A stretch of 38,576 bases of DNA, taken from the IMG/VR virus record IMGVR_UViG_3300021960_000201, positions 1-38,576 of that record. One strand, written 5' to 3'. Positions 22,115 to 31,516 of the stretch are shown piece by piece; the first letter of the stretch is position 1, and each line of letters starts with the position of its first letter. Origin of the DNA: a virus. Below the pieces are notes generated by a model. It was not told the DNA's origin. It made no database searches and was given only the letters and a program-made list of their open reading frames with translations. A program made the translations under genes and the position numbers.

Positions 22115-22142
22115 TTGACTTTCCATTCGGCTACCGTATTTT
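22115..22142 (+). promoter_or_regulatory. Sigma70-like early promoter
   Basis: TTGACT (22115-22120) and TATTTT (22137-22142) are separated by 16 bases, a good match to a housekeeping promoter. It lies 57 bases before the first early gene and is the best rightward promoter I can see. Transcription would start near 22150 and read the whole early block. Confidence 0.7.
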
Positions 22143-22198
22143 ACTACCAGCCAACGGGACACACCCCGGCACACACACACCTAGAGAGGATACACACC

Positions 22199-22447
22199 AT
22201 GCAAGGAGAGATCACCGAATACGGACACAAGGCTTTCGACTACCTGCGCCAGCACGAACCGGAGACGCTGGAGCTTGTGAACGAGGAAGTCTACAGGGCT
22301 TATGAGCCGGAAGACCTGACCCTCCGAAGCGTCTTTGCCATCGAACGTGCGCTTAAGCAACTGGGACTCGAGCCAAACGTCTTCCTCTGCTGGTACTACG
22401 AGTGGGAGGAGGAGGAAGACCATTACGACGACTTCTATGTATGCTAA
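22199..22447 (+). CDS. First early protein, small acidic hypothetical
   Basis: An 82-residue protein read from the ATG at 22199 (MQGEITEYGHKAFDYLRQHE). AGGATA lies six bases upstream. A longer frame reaching back to 22007 would cross the promoter, so it is rejected. The protein is helical and strongly acidic, with ELVNEEVYRAYEPEDLTLRS and a Trp/Tyr/Glu/Asp-rich tail (CWYYEWEEEEDHYDDFYVC). No family was recognised. As the first gene expressed it may be a host-takeover factor; small acidic early proteins often bind host enzymes. The last base of its stop codon is the first paired base of the hammerhead ribozyme that follows. Confidence 0.75.
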   Translation: MQGEITEYGHKAFDYLRQHEPETLELVNEEVYRAYEPEDLTLRSVFAIERALKQLGLEPNVFLCWYYEWEEEEDHYDDFYVC

Positions 22448-22498
22448 GCCGAAACGCCCTTCGGGGCGTCCACCGGTATCGCCGGTGCTGACGAGGCT
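22447..22498 (+). ncRNA. Type II hammerhead self-cleaving ribozyme (HHR1)
   Basis: All core positions of a hammerhead are present, with the open end at stem II. Stem II is AGCC (22447-22450) with GGCT (22495-22498). GAAA lies at 22451-22454, whose last A pairs with U22469. Stem III is CGCCC/GGGCG with a TTCG loop (22455-22468). The cleavage-site C is 22470. Stem I is CACCGG/CCGGTG with loop TATCG (22471-22487), and CTGACGA is at 22488-22494. Cleavage is expected after C22470, separating the first early gene from the AAA+ ATPase mRNA. Loop TCG (22479-22481) could pair with CGA (22499-22501). A second copy with covarying stems lies at 24628. Confidence 0.95.
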
Positions 22499-22540
22499 CG
22501 ACAACCGACCCGCAGACACACACACCTAGAGGATACACAC

Positions 22541-23689
22541 ATGAACCCTATCATCCCCATCATCCGCAAGTACGAAGCCGGTAGCTACGACGAGAACGCC
22601 CTTCGCACCGTCCTGCGGAACCGGTCAGCCAACGCACTTCGCGAGGCATGCCGCATCAACTTCGCCGACCACCCTGACGGCACCACGTGGGTTGCCAGCG
22701 CACGTAAGGACGCCATGATCGAGGCGCTGGTCAGCGGTCTAAACCACGGCAACACCGTGCCAGCACCGGGCGTCCAGCCCGCAGGGTCCGACCCTGCCGA
22801 CCTGCTCTTCGCCGGGCTACGTGGGCTCATAGGTCAGCAACCCGCCAGCATCGACCGGGACGCCGTGGTGTCCATCGTGCAGGAACAGCTAGCCAGCATG
22901 CCAGCACGCACCGTCGAGGTGGTCATCCCCGACCGTCCGACCGTGGACGTGGGGCGCCAGCATCCGCACTTCGACAAGCTGGTCAAGGCGCTTGCCCTTG
23001 GCACCGTGGCTCTCGTCGGTCCAGCCGGGTCCGGCAAGACGTCAGCCGCCCGTGCCGCCGCCAAGGCGTACGGTCAGGCGTTTACTGCCATCTCCGTGGG
23101 CGCACAGACCAGCGCGTCCGACATCTTCGGGTTCGTCGATGCCAACGGTCAGCACCGCAAGGACACCGTGGCGCGTGCCATCACCGAGGGGCATGTGCTC
23201 CTGCTAGACGAGTACGACACCTGCCACCCCGGCGTGTCCAAGCAGATGAACGGCATCCTCGACTCCGACACCACCGTGGTCGAGTTCCCGCACGGCAAGG
23301 TCGAGAAGCATCCCGACTTTCGGGTCGTGGTTGCCATGAACACCACCGGACGTGGCGCGTCCCGCGAGTACGTTGGTGGACGCCAGCAGGATGCCAGCAC
23401 GCTGGACCGCATGTTCTGGATCGACTGGTCGTACGACCTCGACTTCGAGCGCGAGCTCACACTAGCTCAGGGCGCCAGCACGAAGGATGCCACCGACTGG
23501 ATCGACACCATCGACAAGCTGCGCGACCGCGCCGTCGAGACCGGTCTGCGTATCACCATCGGCACCCGTGCCAAGATCCGCGGAGCCCGTGCCCTCGCCG
23601 CTGGCTTCAGCAAGGATGAGGCGCTGGACCTCGTGCTCCTGTCAGCCCTCGGCGCGGACGAGCGTGCCAGCCTCAAAGCGTCCCTGTAA
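22541..23689 (+). CDS. MoxR/CbbQ-like AAA+ ATPase
   Basis: A 382-residue ATPase. The Walker A motif is GPAGSGKT (160-167), Walker B is VLLLDEYD (219-226), the sensor-1-like Asn is in AMNTTGRG (about 267), and an arginine-finger-like Arg lies in LDRMFWIDW (290). The N-terminal 70 residues resemble a small helical DNA- or protein-binding module (SAP-like: LREACRINF, then RKDAMIEALVSG). MoxR-type ATPases remodel partner proteins, usually a VWA-domain partner encoded next door; here the next gene may fill that role. AGGATA lies five bases before the ATG. It is the first gene after HHR1 and is GC-rich with C-ending codons. The substrate is unknown. Confidence 0.93.
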   Translation: MNPIIPIIRKYEAGSYDENALRTVLRNRSANALREACRINFADHPDGTTWVASARKDAMIEALVSGLNHGNTVPAPGVQPAGSDPADLLFAGLRGLIGQQPASIDRDAVVSIVQEQLASMPARTVEVVIPDRPTVDVGRQHPHFDKLVKALALGTVALVGPAGSGKTSAARAAAKAYGQAFTAISVGAQTSASDIFGFVDANGQHRKDTVARAITEGHVLLLDEYDTCHPGVSKQMNGILDSDTTVVEFPHGKVEKHPDFRVVVAMNTTGRGASREYVGGRQQDASTLDRMFWIDWSYDLDFERELTLAQGASTKDATDWIDTIDKLRDRAVETGLRITIGTRAKIRGARALAAGFSKDEALDLVLLSALGADERASLKASL

Positions 23690-23737: not shown

Positions 23738-24619
23738 ATGAAGCGCATCAAGACAGAAACCAGCAACACCTTCATCTTTGACAGCATCGAGGATGCCGTG
23801 TCCTACGGCACGAACAGCAAAGCGCCTTGGGACCAGTCCAAGACCAACGGCGAGGACTTCGCCTTCTCCCGCGACTGGGACCACCACGTCGAGCTCATGA
23901 CCACCGGCTGGGTATACGGTCGCAAGCAATTCGCAGATGCTAGACGCGACAGCGGCGTGCCCGTCAGCGCCCCCGTGGTCGAGTCCTTTGAAGCCGCCTT
24001 CGACGTCTGCGGGTCCGTGGTCGACATGGGTCGCTACGTCGACGGTGAGCCCGAGAACATGCTAGACTACCGCCTCGAGGAGATCGAGGGCACGGGCAAC
24101 ATCATCACCATCCTAGCCGGTGGTTGCGTTGCCGGGTGGACCAGCACGGACAGCATGGTCCGCTACGGTGTGGCTCTAGCATGCACCATCGACCTGCTCG
24201 AGTCCAACGGCTACCGTGTCGAGCTACTGGTCGCTTACTCGAGCTATCACAACACGTTCGTGGAGCCGACCGGCAAGAAATACCTCAACTCGGTCGTGCC
24301 CATCAAGCGTGCCAACGAGCCCCTCGACGTGGAGCGGTTCATCAAGACGCTGGTCTGCCCTAGCTGGTTTCGCCGTGGCATGTTCCGCGTGGACGAGGCA
24401 ATGGTGCACGAGCTCTCGGGCGGCAAGACAACCCTCGAAAAGCTGACGCCCGGCTACGGCACGGTCAACTGGGATCTTGACGAATTGGCTACTGTGCTAG
24501 ACGCCGACACCGTGGTGGAGTCTATCAAGCGCCACAACCAGCACTACAGCGTCAAGGAGCACATGGTCAACATGCTGGGCGCGGTCGGGCATGCAGACCT
24601 CGCAGACTTCTACGCCTAA
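23738..24619 (+). CDS. Putative partner of the AAA+ ATPase (VWA-like fold suspected)
   Basis: A 293-residue protein starting MKRIKTETSNTFIFDSIEDA. The N-terminal part has aromatic and acidic clusters (DFAFSRDWDHHVELMTTGWV). The centre (about residues 120-170) has the strand-helix-strand order of a von Willebrand A domain: IITILAGGCVAGW, then VRYGVALACTIDLLESNGYR, then VELLVAYSS. The DxSxS metal site is not evident, so any VWA fold would be degenerate. I recognise related phage proteins but no function. It follows the ATPase by 48 bases and shares its GC-rich codon use. It is the last gene before HHR2, so the pair would be released as a two-gene mRNA. Confidence 0.75.
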   Translation: MKRIKTETSNTFIFDSIEDAVSYGTNSKAPWDQSKTNGEDFAFSRDWDHHVELMTTGWVYGRKQFADARRDSGVPVSAPVVESFEAAFDVCGSVVDMGRYVDGEPENMLDYRLEEIEGTGNIITILAGGCVAGWTSTDSMVRYGVALACTIDLLESNGYRVELLVAYSSYHNTFVEPTGKKYLNSVVPIKRANEPLDVERFIKTLVCPSWFRRGMFRVDEAMVHELSGGKTTLEKLTPGYGTVNWDLDELATVLDADTVVESIKRHNQHYSVKEHMVNMLGAVGHADLADFYA

Positions 24620-24627
24620 ACCAACCA

Positions 24628-24681
24628 AGCCGAAACGGTCCCGTAAGACCGTCCGCTGGTATCGCCAGCGCTGACGAGGCT
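24628..24681 (+). ncRNA. Type II hammerhead self-cleaving ribozyme (HHR2)
   Basis: A second complete hammerhead. Stem II is AGCC (24628-24631) with GGCT (24678-24681). GAAA is at 24632-24635. Stem III is CGGTC/GACCG around a CCGTAA loop (24636-24651). The cleavage-site C is 24653. Stem I is CGCTGG/CCAGCG with loop TATCG (24654-24670), and CTGACGA is at 24671-24677. Stems I and III differ from HHR1 by paired changes that keep base pairing, while core and stem I loop are identical. This is strong evidence of a selected RNA. It lies nine bases after the stop of the 293-residue gene and cuts before a 33-residue membrane peptide gene. Confidence 0.95.
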
Positions 24682-24721: not shown

Positions 24722-24823
24722 ATGACACCTATCGACCGAATCTGCCGCGTGCTAGACCGCGCATGCCTCGCCGGGCTCACGCTTGGCACAGCTTACCTCA
24801 TCATCAGAACCATCATCGGATAG
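24722..24823 (+). CDS. 33-residue membrane peptide
   Basis: A short ORF beginning MTPIDRICRVLDRACLAGLT and ending LGTAYLIIRTIIG. One hydrophobic helix (about residues 15-32) is preceded by a basic amphipathic start. It has a CA-rich leader (CACACACCACC directly before the ATG), like several early genes. It is the first gene after HHR2. It may be a small membrane toxin, lysis inhibitor or superinfection-exclusion peptide, but this is speculative. Confidence 0.55.
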   Translation: MTPIDRICRVLDRACLAGLTLGTAYLIIRTIIG

Positions 24824-24827
24824 ACCA

Positions 24828-25010
24828 ATGCAGACACTACGCAGAACCAAGACCGGGGCGCTTGCGCCAGCCGATCAAGCACTACCAACAGAGAAGCCTG
24901 AGATCAACCGCGAAAGTGAATACTCGTGGTGGTTCGACTGGGAGCGGGACGAAGACCCCCTGACCTTTTGGGACCGCAAACTTGCACGCCGCAGAGGCAA
25001 CCACAAATAA
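24828..25010 (+). CDS. Small hypothetical early protein
   Basis: A 60-residue protein read from the ATG at 24828 (MQTLRRTKTGALAPADQALP), four bases after the preceding stop. It ends in a Trp-rich charged region (EYSWWFDWERDEDPLTFWDR) and a basic tail. No family is recognised. The close spacing suggests coupling to the membrane peptide gene. A frame beginning 45 bases upstream at TTG lies inside the previous gene and is not preferred. Confidence 0.6.
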   Translation: MQTLRRTKTGALAPADQALPTEKPEINRESEYSWWFDWERDEDPLTFWDRKLARRRGNHK

Positions 25011-25072: not shown

Positions 25073-25399
25073 ATGGAAACCACACCATACACCACCCCCG
25101 TTCCTGAAGTCGGCAACATCTCCGACGGATCACTATCGCCACGGTTCGGACTGGGAAACCTCGTAGCCACGCCGGGCGTCATCGACGCCATCGGGCTGGA
25201 CAACGTGATGCCCTACGTATTCATGCACCTGACCGGGCACTGGGGAGACCTAGACGAGGAAGACCAGCGCACCAATGACTGGTCCGTAGAGAACGGCTCC
25301 CGCATCCTGTCCGCGTATCATTGGAAGGGCGAAAAGTTTTGGATCATCACGGAGCGCGACCGAAGCGTCACCACCCTGCTCCTGCCCGACGAATACTAG
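25073..25399 (+). CDS. Conserved phage/plasmid protein (LGNLVATPG family)
   Basis: A 108-residue protein with a pattern I know from many phages and plasmids. It has FGLGNLVATPGVIDAIGLDN, then HLTGHWGDLDEEDQRTNDWS, then GSRILSAYHWKGEKFWIITE, and finally DRSVTTLLLPDEY. Database entries often carry the unproven label 'type I restriction endonuclease subunit M'; no methylase motif is present. The actual function is unknown. It is in the early operon, preceded by a CA-rich leader (CACACACCACC before ATG). Confidence 0.85.
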   Translation: METTPYTTPVPEVGNISDGSLSPRFGLGNLVATPGVIDAIGLDNVMPYVFMHLTGHWGDLDEEDQRTNDWSVENGSRILSAYHWKGEKFWIITERDRSVTTLLLPDEY

Positions 25400-25409
25400 A
25401 CACACACCA

Positions 25410-25427
25410 GCCACCCCGTAAGGTGGC
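25410..25427 (+). promoter_or_regulatory. CCGTAA-loop leader hairpin H1
   Basis: GCCACC (25410-25415) pairs perfectly with GGTGGC (25422-25427) around loop CCGTAA. The hairpin ends exactly 17 bases before the ATG at 25445. The spacer reads ACAACCCTAC then TAAGACA, without a Shine-Dalgarno. Two more hairpins with the same loop and the same 17-base distance occur at 25732 and 29804. Confidence 0.8.
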
Positions 25428-25444
25428 ACAACCCTACTAAGACA

Positions 25445-25681
25445 ATGGCACAGATTAATCTGATTCTACCTACCTACTTGGCGTTCGCCATCAAGAATGA
25501 TGACTATGATGACCTTGACGCTCAGGAGCGGCGCGAGTTCGACGCATGGTGGGCAGACCTTGAAAAGCGGCACGGATCCCTGTGGTTCTATGGTTGCCGT
25601 GACTACATCGGCGATGCCGAAGGCGACGATTACACGGGTGGTCGGATATGGGACCACCAACTCGTCACCCTTGGAGAATAA
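25445..25681 (+). CDS. Small acidic conserved phage protein
   Basis: A 78-residue protein (MAQINLILPTYLAFAIKNDD). The pattern, a short strand then YDDLDAQERREFDAWWADLE, resembles a small phage family I recall as DUF6926, not verified. The middle has GSLWFYGCRDYIGDAEGDDY and it ends RIWDHQLVTLGE. No enzyme motif is seen. Translation probably depends on the CCGTAA-loop hairpin 17 bases upstream. The last codons are duplicated just downstream (25701-25721). Confidence 0.7.
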   Translation: MAQINLILPTYLAFAIKNDDYDDLDAQERREFDAWWADLEKRHGSLWFYGCRDYIGDAEGDDYTGGRIWDHQLVTLGE

Positions 25682-25721
25682 GCGCTCCAGACACCACGTA
25701 CTCGTCACCCTTGCAGAATAA
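25661..25721 (+). repeat. Imperfect direct repeat at the 3' end of the 25445 gene
   Basis: CTCGTCACCCTTGGAGAATA (25661-25680) recurs as CTCGTCACCCTTGCAGAATA (25701-25720), one base different and exactly 40 bases apart. The first copy encodes the last residues and part of the stop; the second is non-coding. It suggests a local duplication that also involved the hairpin leader. Confidence 0.7.
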
Positions 25722-25731
25722 ACACACACCA

Positions 25732-25749
25732 GCCGCCCCGTAAGGCAGC
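25732..25749 (+). promoter_or_regulatory. CCGTAA-loop leader hairpin H2
   Basis: GCCGCC (25732-25737) and GGCAGC (25744-25749) pair with one C-A mismatch around loop CCGTAA. It ends 17 bases before the ATG at 25767. About 45 bases of leader and the first codons (ATG-ACA-CAG-ATA versus ATG-GCA-CAG-ATT) match the leader of the 25445 gene, so this is a duplicated control element. Confidence 0.75.
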
Positions 25750-25766
25750 ACAACCTTACCAAGACA

Positions 25767-25985
25767 ATGACACAGATAGATAAAGACGTGCAGTACCTGA
25801 GGGCTATCGCTGATGCCTTCCCGAAACCGAGAAAGACAATGGCATCCGAATCAGAGGAGCAGGAAGAAGAGGAGCACGACGATCCGGCGCTAGACCCGGA
25901 CAACGAGTACTGCTCATGCGGCAGGCTGACGGACAACTATCCCGTGATCTGCGACCACTGCAGGTACATGGCAAGAATACCATAA
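25767..25985 (+). CDS. Small acidic protein with C-terminal Cys-rich zinc motif
   Basis: A 72-residue protein. The N-terminal 30 residues are helical (MTQIDKDVQYLRAIADAFPK); then comes an extremely acidic stretch (SESEEQEEEEHDDPALDPDN). The C-terminus has C-x-C (EYCSCGRL) and C-x2-C (ICDHCRYMARIP), a likely single zinc ribbon. The acidic linker plus zinc knuckle is compatible with protein or nucleic-acid mimicry. Its function is unknown. The gene has the H2 hairpin leader. Confidence 0.7.
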   Translation: MTQIDKDVQYLRAIADAFPKPRKTMASESEEQEEEEHDDPALDPDNEYCSCGRLTDNYPVICDHCRYMARIP

Positions 25986-29088: not shown

Positions 29089-29793
29089 ATGAAAATCCGC
29101 ACAACAACCAATTACAACCAGTTCAAACAGCTCACCGGAAACCGGTCTATCAACCAGTCGCACAAAGCAAGGCTGATGGAGTCCATGCGGGAAAACTACC
29201 GCTTCACGGTCGTCACGGTAAACGAGAATTACGAGGTGATCGATGGTCAGCACCGCCTAGCATGCGCCAAGGAGCTCGGGCTTCCTGTACACTACGTGGT
29301 ATGCAAGGGTTATGGTCTATCTGATGTCCAGCAACTAAATGCAAACCTGAAGAGGTGGACCACTAACGACTACCTCGAAGGCTACTGCGAGATGGGCAAC
29401 GAGCACTATCTGTTTTACCGGGCTTTTAAGAATAGCTTCAAGCTCGGTCACAATGAGTGCATGAGGCTCTTGTCCGGCTCCTACAAGGGAAAGAAGTTTG
29501 ATGACTTCAGGAACGGAGAGTTCACGGTGGTAGACGGCGCCAAGGCAATGGACTACGCCGAGAAGATCGTAGGGCTTGAGGATCTGTACTCCGGTGTGCG
29601 CCGACGAGCCTTTGTGTTTGCCATGATGGACCTACTGGATCTACCACAATTCGACTACGACAGGTTCCGCTCAAAGCTCGAGCGCCAGCGTGCTAAGATG
29701 CACGACTGCACTTCGTCTGACCAGTACAAGGATCTGATCGAAACGATCTACAACTTCTACACCAGCGACAAGGTAAACCTGCGCTTCGCATAG
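29089..29793 (+). CDS. ParB/Srx-fold protein
   Basis: A 234-residue protein with the ParB N-terminal signature: FTVVTVNENYEVIDGQHRLA, then CAKELGLPVHYVVCKG (residues 39-74). The DGQHR motif is the nucleotide-handling site in ParB/Srx proteins. Many phage ParB-like proteins act as nucleases, modification factors or regulators rather than in partition. The C-terminal helical domain (RFRSKLERQRAKMHDCTSSD onward) is uncharacterised. I prefer the ATG at 29089 over that at 29077. Its neighbours (recombinase, DnaA-like, nuclease) suggest a role in DNA metabolism. Confidence 0.85.
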   Translation: MKIRTTTNYNQFKQLTGNRSINQSHKARLMESMRENYRFTVVTVNENYEVIDGQHRLACAKELGLPVHYVVCKGYGLSDVQQLNANLKRWTTNDYLEGYCEMGNEHYLFYRAFKNSFKLGHNECMRLLSGSYKGKKFDDFRNGEFTVVDGAKAMDYAEKIVGLEDLYSGVRRRAFVFAMMDLLDLPQFDYDRFRSKLERQRAKMHDCTSSDQYKDLIETIYNFYTSDKVNLRFA

Positions 29794-29803
29794 GCATCAA
29801 TCT

Positions 29804-29821
29804 GCCGCCCCGTAAGGCGGC
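29804..29821 (+). promoter_or_regulatory. CCGTAA-loop leader hairpin H3
   Basis: GCCGCC (29804-29809) pairs perfectly with GGCGGC (29816-29821) around loop CCGTAA. It ends 17 bases before the ATG at 29839, matching H1 and H2. The spacer is ACAAAGCACA then CAGAACA, again without a Shine-Dalgarno. Confidence 0.8.
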
Positions 29822-29838
29822 ACAAAGCACACAGAACA

Positions 29839-30399
29839 ATGGCAAGAAAAGACACAGGCGTCGTGAACATTCACGGCAAGGAATACAAGACGGTAGCCCT
29901 TCGGGTTGCCGAGTTTCGCAACGAGTACACCATCAAGGATGGTTGGGGCATCGTGACATCGCTTGTCCACCATGACGAGGACACGGTTATTATGAGAGCC
30001 GAGGTGGTCAACCCATCAGGCATGGTGGTCGGGACTGGTTACGCAGAGGAAAAGCGGTCAGCCAGTCAGATCAACCGCACCTCAGCCATGGAAGTATCGG
30101 AGACTAGCAGCATCGGACGCGCACTCGCAGCCGTGGGGCTTGCCGGGACCGAGTACGCTTCTGCCGATGAGGTAGCCAATGCTATACAGCAGCAGTCCTC
30201 TAGCCCCAAGCAATCGGGAGGCGGCTACACGTCCGGTGCTAGCGAGAAGCAGGTAGGCTTTGCCAAATCCCTGCTCAAGAACCCCAAGCTGTCAGCCGAG
30301 CAACGCCGTGACGGCATGGCGTATCTCGATGGGGATCGCACTGGCAAAGAGGTTAGTGCTTTCATCGACCGGCTCAAAGCCCTGATAGGTGATGAGTGA
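29839..30399 (+). CDS. Putative Rad52/ERF-like single-strand annealing protein
   Basis: A 186-residue protein. Residues 1-115 show the beta-rich start and the final motif TSAMEVSETSSIGRALAAVG, then EYASADEVANAI. This Glu-Thr-Ser then GRALA arrangement resembles Rad52/ERF-type annealing proteins. A Ser/Gly-rich linker follows, then a C-terminal helical region (EKQVGFAKSLLKNPKLSAEQ) of a kind seen in phage recombinases and ssDNA-binding proteins. The role would be annealing or recombination during phage replication. The family call is by resemblance. It has the H3 hairpin leader and is followed by a coupled gene. Confidence 0.65.
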   Translation: MARKDTGVVNIHGKEYKTVALRVAEFRNEYTIKDGWGIVTSLVHHDEDTVIMRAEVVNPSGMVVGTGYAEEKRSASQINRTSAMEVSETSSIGRALAAVGLAGTEYASADEVANAIQQQSSSPKQSGGGYTSGASEKQVGFAKSLLKNPKLSAEQRRDGMAYLDGDRTGKEVSAFIDRLKALIGDE

Positions 30400-30863: not shown

Positions 30864-31094
30864 ATGACACACATTGCAAAAACCATGACCCTCAGAGACG
30901 GCGAGATCAAAACAACAGTCCGCGCCATCAACCATGCACACAGTGCTATCCACAAGGTAGTATCGAAGTATGCTGGCGACATTGACGACGAGACATCCTC
31001 CGAGTGCATGATCGCGCTGGCAGAGCTGGAGGCAATAATCCAGCACGTGTTTGGCTCCCTGTCAACATCGAAGACAAAGGAGGTTTCTAAGTGA
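30864..31094 (+). CDS. Small helical hypothetical protein
   Basis: A 76-residue protein (MTHIAKTMTLRDGEIKTTVR). Predicted to be two helices (AINHAHSAIHKVVSKYAGDI and ECMIALAELEAIIQHVFGSL). No family is recognised. It has a CA-rich leader (AACACACACCC before the ATG). Its TGA overlaps the GTG start of the DnaA-domain gene, so it may regulate or associate with that protein. Confidence 0.6.
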   Translation: MTHIAKTMTLRDGEIKTTVRAINHAHSAIHKVVSKYAGDIDDETSSECMIALAELEAIIQHVFGSLSTSKTKEVSK

Positions 31095-31516
31095 TTACCA
31101 ATCAAATGATAGACGAAGCCATCGGCGCTGGCAAAAACATACCGACCCCGGAAGAGGTCAAGTTTGTTGTCGCCGGTGTATGCGGAATACCGCAGGATGA
31201 GATCGTGGGCAAGAGGAGGTTTCAGGCAGTCGTCACGGCTAGGCACATCGCCATGTGGATATGTGTCTGCCTGAGGCACTTGTCCCTAGCTGATATTGGC
31301 AAGAGCTTCGGTGGAAGAGACCACACGACAGTCATACATGCCGCTAGAACCATTGATGGATACCTGAGCATAGCGCTTATGCCTAGCGCAAGTGGAGCTC
31401 ACCACGAAAGGGAGGTGCTCAAGAATATCAAGGCGTCAGTAGACATTCTGAAAAGCCGTGGATACGACATGATAGACGCGGCAGATCTCATCAACGCAAG
31501 ACTGAACCGTGGCTAA
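31091..31516 (+). CDS. Stand-alone DnaA domain IV protein
   Basis: A 141-residue protein with a GTG start overlapping the previous stop. Residues 15-90 match the DNA-binding domain IV of bacterial DnaA: KNIPTPEEVKFVVAGVCGIP, then EIVGKRRFQAVVTARHIAMW, LSLADIGKSFGGRDHTTVIH. The last includes the DnaA signature helix GGRDHTTV (74-81) that reads the TTATNCACA box. The AAA+ ATPase and oligomerisation domains are absent. It should bind DnaA boxes, such as those at 21381-21679, and could help recruit or block host DnaA. A short C-terminal helix follows. Confidence 0.94.
   Translation: MITNQMIDEAIGAGKNIPTPEEVKFVVAGVCGIPQDEIVGKRRFQAVVTARHIAMWICVCLRHLSLADIGKSFGGRDHTTVIHAARTIDGYLSIALMPSASGAHHEREVLKNIKASVDILKSRGYDMIDAADLINARLNRG

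Follow-up and report, generated by a model that had tools for sequence, protein, structure and literature searches.

The window analyzed here is the whole of one virus record in IMG/VR (IMGVR_UViG_3300021960_000201; 38,576 nucleotides), in which the structural genes lie leftward and the early region rightward. Comparison with phage records gave only weak mycobacteriophage matches, of up to 85 bp, around position 24,000. The following features lie at the start of the early region.

22115–22142, + strand: promoter-like TTGACT-16-TATTTT before the first rightward gene (consensus scan; weak, within shuffle expectation)
22199–22447, + strand: first rightward gene, 82 aa, without a Pfam or PHROG match; TAA stop codon at its end
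22447–22498, + strand: HHR1, type II hammerhead ribozyme (RF02276 match, our own covariance model, stems, and fold)
22470–22471, + strand: predicted cut, after C17 = C22470 (conserved-core position), 23 nt past the stop codon
22488–22515, + strand: alternative hairpin CUGACGAGGCUCG/CGACCCGCAG, competing with the core and stem II (folding)
22513–22540, + strand: leader of the AAA+ gene with ribosome-binding site, a near-copy of the first gene's leader (repeat D8)
22541–23689, + strand: AAA+ ATPase (AAA_5; PHROG 249, CobS-like; Pfam/PHROG)
23738–24619, + strand: DUF7192/PHROG 1909 protein (Pfam/PHROG)
24628–24681, + strand: HHR2, second type II hammerhead, predicted cut after C24653 (RF02276, 33.6 bits)
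24722–24823, + strand: small membrane-like protein downstream of HHR2 (boundary conserved in L003, L213, and L034)

HHR1 and HHR2 bracket the gene pair encoding the AAA+ ATPase and the DUF7192 protein. The predicted cut in HHR2 falls 34 nt past the stop at 24619, and its stems III and I differ from those of HHR1 by compensated base-pair changes. A + strand scan for intrinsic terminators (G+C hairpin with a T-run) found none near either ribozyme. The small genes at 24722–24823 and 24835–25010 keep their order in L003, L213, and L034 and form a stable landmark beside HHR2.

The closest relative of the window, the sister phage L003 (93% identity across long stretches), was the sole close relative obtained with a one-protein query. 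L003 retains HHR2 but has neither HHR1 nor the first gene; the promoter region there leads directly into the AAA+ leader, the breakpoint of the cassette. The missing segment is flanked in the window by leader near-copies at 22166–22197 and 22509–22540. Because L003 is without both elements together, the first gene and HHR1 behave, and move, as one cassette. In L213 and L034, which are more distantly related, the same small membrane gene again has a hammerhead ahead of it, with an unrelated gene on the ribozyme's upstream side; the second hammerhead of L213 begins on a stop codon as HHR1 does (TAAGCCGAAACGCCC).

HHR1 Is a Complete Type II Hammerhead

HHR1 reads A-GCC / GAAA / CGCCC-UUCG-GGGCG / U-C / CACCGG-UAUCG-CCGGUG / CUGACGA / GGC-U. 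The TAA stop codon of the first gene occupies 22445–22447, and its last base doubles as the first base of stem II, as an earlier note on this sequence had observed. In stem II, AGCC (22447–22450) pairs with GGCT (22495–22498). Stem III (22454–22469) comprises A22454–T22469 and 5 bp closed by a TTCG loop, with GAAA at 22451–22454, and stem I (region 22471–22487) has 6 bp (22471–22476/22482–22487) and a TATCG loop. The catalytic strand CTGACGA spans 22488–22494, with a C at position 7 that the consensus permits. The core contains C3 U4 G5 A6 N7 G8 A9, G12 A13 A14, the A15.1–U16.1 pair, and H17 (T22469–C22470). Stems I and III are closed by loops and stem II is open, the arrangement that characterizes type II. 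This topology supports the earlier prediction that a cut after C22470 would part the first cistron from the AAA+ message and leave a 5'-hydroxyl hairpin on the downstream RNA.

The Rfam model Hammerhead_II (RF02276) aligned with HHR1 from end to end at 33.7 bits (E = 0.0031) and thus narrowly missed the gathering score of 37; an Infernal score above threshold, the check proposed in the earlier note, was not reached with this model. The gathering score is a curator's cut-off rather than a structural feature, and RF02276 models a larger loop I than HHR1 has. With our own covariance model, made from 61 viral short-loop-I relatives with the window's own hammerheads excluded, HHR1 scored 71.7 bits (E = 1.2e-19) and HHR2 60.7 bits. 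In the alignment of these relatives, the rows of which were partly selected for pairing, 98.6% of cells are paired (33–43% in slid-alignment controls), the covariation score is 0.665 versus 0.155 for shuffled alignments, and the stems covary, with double changes in 12 of 16 pairs. When 1500 Markov windows of the same dinucleotide make-up were searched on both strands, 22 relaxed matches appeared, none with stems of at least 4/5/6 bp. For the 62-nt HHR1 element, the hammerhead secondary structure is both the minimum free energy (MFE) and the centroid fold, which together with the stem check bears out the three paired stems and open stem II described earlier. On its sequence, HHR1 is a genuine and complete type II hammerhead, at exactly the coordinates given in the earlier note, and its cleavage is predicted.

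HHR1 resembles the type II hammerheads of bacteria and prophages (RF02276; PMC3088659) in its core, three stems, open stem II, and occurrence in arrays to either side of one gene or a short block in phage genomes. Perreault et al. 2011 (PMC3088659) described type II hammerheads in prophage arrays flanking genes. Similar prophage arrays underwent cleavage both in vitro and inside E. coli cells; of 18 consensus hammerheads that these authors assayed, 4 showed no activity (PMC3088659).

Type II Hammerheads Commonly Abut Stop Codons

Pattern scans of IMG/VR, which are blind to the sequence upstream of the ribozyme and biased in sequence and GC content, gave 266 non-redundant type II hammerheads among the matches listed; upstream ORFs of at least 50 aa were called mechanically. 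A stop codon ends 2–5 nt before GAAA in 54% of these 266 and in 1.3% of random same-strand positions. Among the matches listed, stem II begins a median of 1 nt from the stop, the next start codon lies a median of 32 nt from the core, and 199 of 223 lie nearer to the upstream stop than to the downstream start. The start of HHR1 on a stop codon is therefore the usual arrangement. The earlier note had taken such placement within an operon as exceptional; it is in fact the commonest one among viral type II hammerheads. As a control, GCCGAAAC sites outside called ribozymes were stop-abutted in 19% of cases, and these are probably imperfect hammerheads that the scan missed.

A separate, smaller set of type II hammerheads from bacterial genomes gave a similar picture, with 62% within 8 nt of a stop. 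Among annotated Streptomyces phages (mostly one clade) and two other annotated phages, 9 of 26 hammerheads are at most 8 nt and 16 of 26 at most 20 nt from an annotated stop. The Streptomyces phages Celia, Janus, Alvy, Puginator, and Wentworth carry ribozymes of the same type between small early genes, although mostly with a long loop I and at looser distances from annotated stops than HHR1. Celia (L846, NC_054655, 37203–50260) has ten type II motifs in 13 kb of its early region and Janus (L125, NC_054660) six in 5 kb; the annotation listed for these two phages makes no mention of them. Dense arrays also occur in L137 and L197, with 8 and 6 exact pattern matches in 4–9 kb, and L100 has nine called hammerheads on a single strand.

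Hammerheads placed at stop codons are thus common, with hundreds of phage examples. The text of Perreault et al. 2011 (PMC3088659) does not use the term "stop codon", and in the open-access literature searched we found no statement of a stop-codon placement rule. A review by De la Pena et al. 2017 (PMC6155905) regarded it as unsettled what hammerheads do in prokaryotes and phages.

A Competing Helix and Two Loop Subtypes

In a 96-nt context, the MFE structure (−31.3 kcal/mol) contains the alternative hairpin at 22488–22515, compared with −25.5 kcal/mol for the ribozyme fold; the hairpin also folds in HHR2. Because the MFE structure in this longer context swaps stem II for the competing helix, HHR1 activity may depend on co-transcriptional folding. 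In this folding model, the alternative hairpin may represent how the downstream product folds.

The 5-nt loop I of HHR1 (UNANG) places it in a short-loop subtype. HHR1 differs from the type II hammerheads of RF02276 in this loop, in its score below the gathering cut-off, and in having no 4-bp pseudoknot between loop I and the tail. Pseudoknots of at least 4 bp between these elements occur in 77% of long-loop type II hammerheads versus 29% with swapped tails. We rejected such a pseudoknot for the short-loop subtype, which shows no excess over swapped tails (HHR1 could form 3 bp at most). The pseudoknot, described by Perreault et al. 2011, is a majority feature in their set rather than a defining one.

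A different relationship was found in the short-loop subtype, where complementarity of at least 5 bp between tail and catalytic strand occurs in 36% of members versus 2.5% after shuffling. A general product-trap helix across type II was rejected, since long-loop members reach 3.8% versus 2.2% for shuffles; the feature is confined to a short-loop subset. Core base N7 matches the G/AUCAG tail in 38 of 38 cases (C7 with GUCAG in 31/31, U7 with AUCAG in 7/7; Fisher 8e-8, uncorrected for shared ancestry). Tails that are the reverse complement of the core (CUGAC-GA-GGCC-GUCAG or CUGAU-GA-GGCC-AUCAG) were seen in L011:3339–3400, L098, L166, L195, and L219, mostly in short-loop members. Judged from its sequence, the core-complementary tail resembles a lock that would hold the product after cutting. 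Neither HHR1 nor HHR2 has the exact form of this tail; theirs is only a weaker, bulged one.

A Tendency toward a Hairpin between Stop and Cut in Types I–III

Type I hammerheads lie at a median of 1 nt from the stop to stem I, which puts hairpins II and III between the stop and the cut. Type III hammerheads do not abut the stop and instead lie 29 nt from it. The spacers between stop and type III ribozyme average −14.2 kcal/mol versus −6.1 kcal/mol for shuffles, and their first paired nucleotide comes 7 nt past the stop, as in type II. In the first type III set, 47 of 56 spacers (84%) have z < −1.64, and a T-run is present in 1 of 56. A replicate with two other patterns was weaker (12 of 23 spacers, 52%). 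Over both sets together, a separate strong hairpin stands between stop and cut in 59 of 79 spacers; among other stops in the same loci, 25–29% are followed by sequence that is clearly stabler than its shuffled versions. Cleavage of a type III ribozyme would, by its topology, put no ribozyme hairpin on the upstream RNA.

On the other side of the cut, the first 40 nt average −14.2 kcal/mol for type II and −13.7 kcal/mol for type III, the products of which begin with stem I. Downstream of type I cuts, we found no extra hairpin (28% clearly more stable than shuffles versus 25% of controls). Given where stop and hairpin sit in types I–III, the upstream message in all three therefore tends to end in "stop, hairpin, cut". 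This is the shared feature, and the downstream 5' hairpin, which type I lacks, is not; we therefore assign the function to the upstream message.

Proposed Role of HHR1 in Forming a 3' End

We consider it reasonably probable, judging from sequence comparisons, that HHR1 is a self-cleaving 3'-end maker, or punctuation, for the gene that precedes it. HHR1 would be transcribed within the rightward operon, fold, and cut after C22470, 23 nt past the stop. The first gene's message would then end in the stable hairpin CGCCC-UUCG-GGGCG and, by hammerhead chemistry, a 2',3'-cyclic phosphate. General RNA biology suggests that such an end could not be polyadenylated, would be a poor substrate for 3' exonucleases, and would resist polyadenylation-assisted decay. 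By the same chemistry, the AAA+ message would have a 5'-OH at its start, immediately within the stem I hairpin, and the cuts of HHR1 and HHR2 would free the AAA+/DUF7192 pair as a separate bicistronic RNA. A ribosome positioned on the stop codon would cover stem II, GAAA, and the base of stem III, making translation and cutting briefly mutually exclusive. Because the stop sits on stem II, cutting would be possible only before or between ribosomes.

The resulting message would resemble the product of an intrinsic (Rho-independent) terminator in that its 3' end is a hairpin just past the stop. It would differ in that HHR1 has no T-run and the end would arise from RNA cleavage while the polymerase continues. 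Several points count against a role in 3'-end formation: the longer-context MFE favors the competing helix over stem II, some consensus hammerheads proved inactive in the assays of Perreault et al., distances to stops are looser in annotated phages, the type III replicate is weaker than the first set, and the placement figures come from mechanically called ORFs and sequence-biased scans. Short gaps after the stop could also partly reflect compact genomes.

That the ribozyme acts for the downstream gene, giving the AAA+ mRNA a 5'-OH, hairpin-capped, RNase E-resistant 5' end, is in our judgment unlikely. Type II and III products do open with a stable stem I, and there is a precedent in haloviruses HF1/HF2, where a transcript 5' end was mapped at most 3 nt from the cut of a hammerhead that precedes a helicase gene (PMC3088659). 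Like HHR1, that hammerhead lies in an early region ahead of a replication gene, although it is a core variant in an archaeal virus and sits 13 nt before the start codon. Type I, which is equally common in phages, nevertheless leaves no special 5' hairpin; among the matches listed, type II hammerheads are tied more closely to the preceding stop than to the next start, and the AAA+ gene of L003 manages without HHR1. Compact genomes offer another account, in which selfish or neutral hammerheads are tolerated only in gaps and appear stop-bound since phage gaps are small. The short gaps, the duplication of hammerhead copies within genomes, and the presence or absence of the first gene plus HHR1 as a cassette between leader repeats would all suit it. 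We nonetheless think it rather improbable: type III hammerheads, in comparable gaps, stand clear of the stop and yet have an extra hairpin, the median type II gap among the matches listed is far longer downstream than upstream, and four relatives retain the hammerhead ahead of the small membrane gene despite differing upstream genes.

Paired hammerheads might instead liberate RNAs whose 5'-OH and 2',3'-cyclic phosphate ends are then joined by ligation, giving circular or spliced mRNAs. The two-gene block between HHR1 and HHR2 would have joinable ends; even so, this is very improbable, as no RNA ligase was present among the early proteins scanned against Pfam, and Perreault et al. sought ligated products and found none (PMC3088659).

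The evidence points to two features that the earlier note overlooked, namely, that a 3' end for the upstream message is better indicated than a 5' end for the downstream one, and that the first gene and HHR1 form a cassette. If HHR1 is a 3'-end maker, one long transcript would be divided into separate messages without proteins or terminators. The placement rule suggests a concrete, testable role in providing hairpin-capped 3' ends for single phage genes, for which the culturable Streptomyces phages Celia and Janus offer test systems. We propose more tentatively, as an extension that could well fail, that phage hammerheads of the three topologies are convergent 3'-end makers in which evolution has kept a stable hairpin between stop and cut, either built in (types I and II) or added (type III), and that in some short-loop type II members a core-complementary tail locks the product after cutting.

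Additional Features of the Window

Matches to mir-1305 and MIR162_2 at the right end of the window fall below their cut-offs and are not credible. At 31091–31516, the window encodes a small phage protein with a DnaA C-terminal DNA-binding domain (PF08299, E = 3e-22). An element repeated at 25397–25455, 25719–25777, and 29791–29849 follows stops and precedes starts, and consists of the hairpin GCCRCCCCGUAAGGYGGC and then ACAA. It is absent from Rfam, and its exact core occurs in 12 contigs of IMG/VR, among them the relative L034 and the record of L003.
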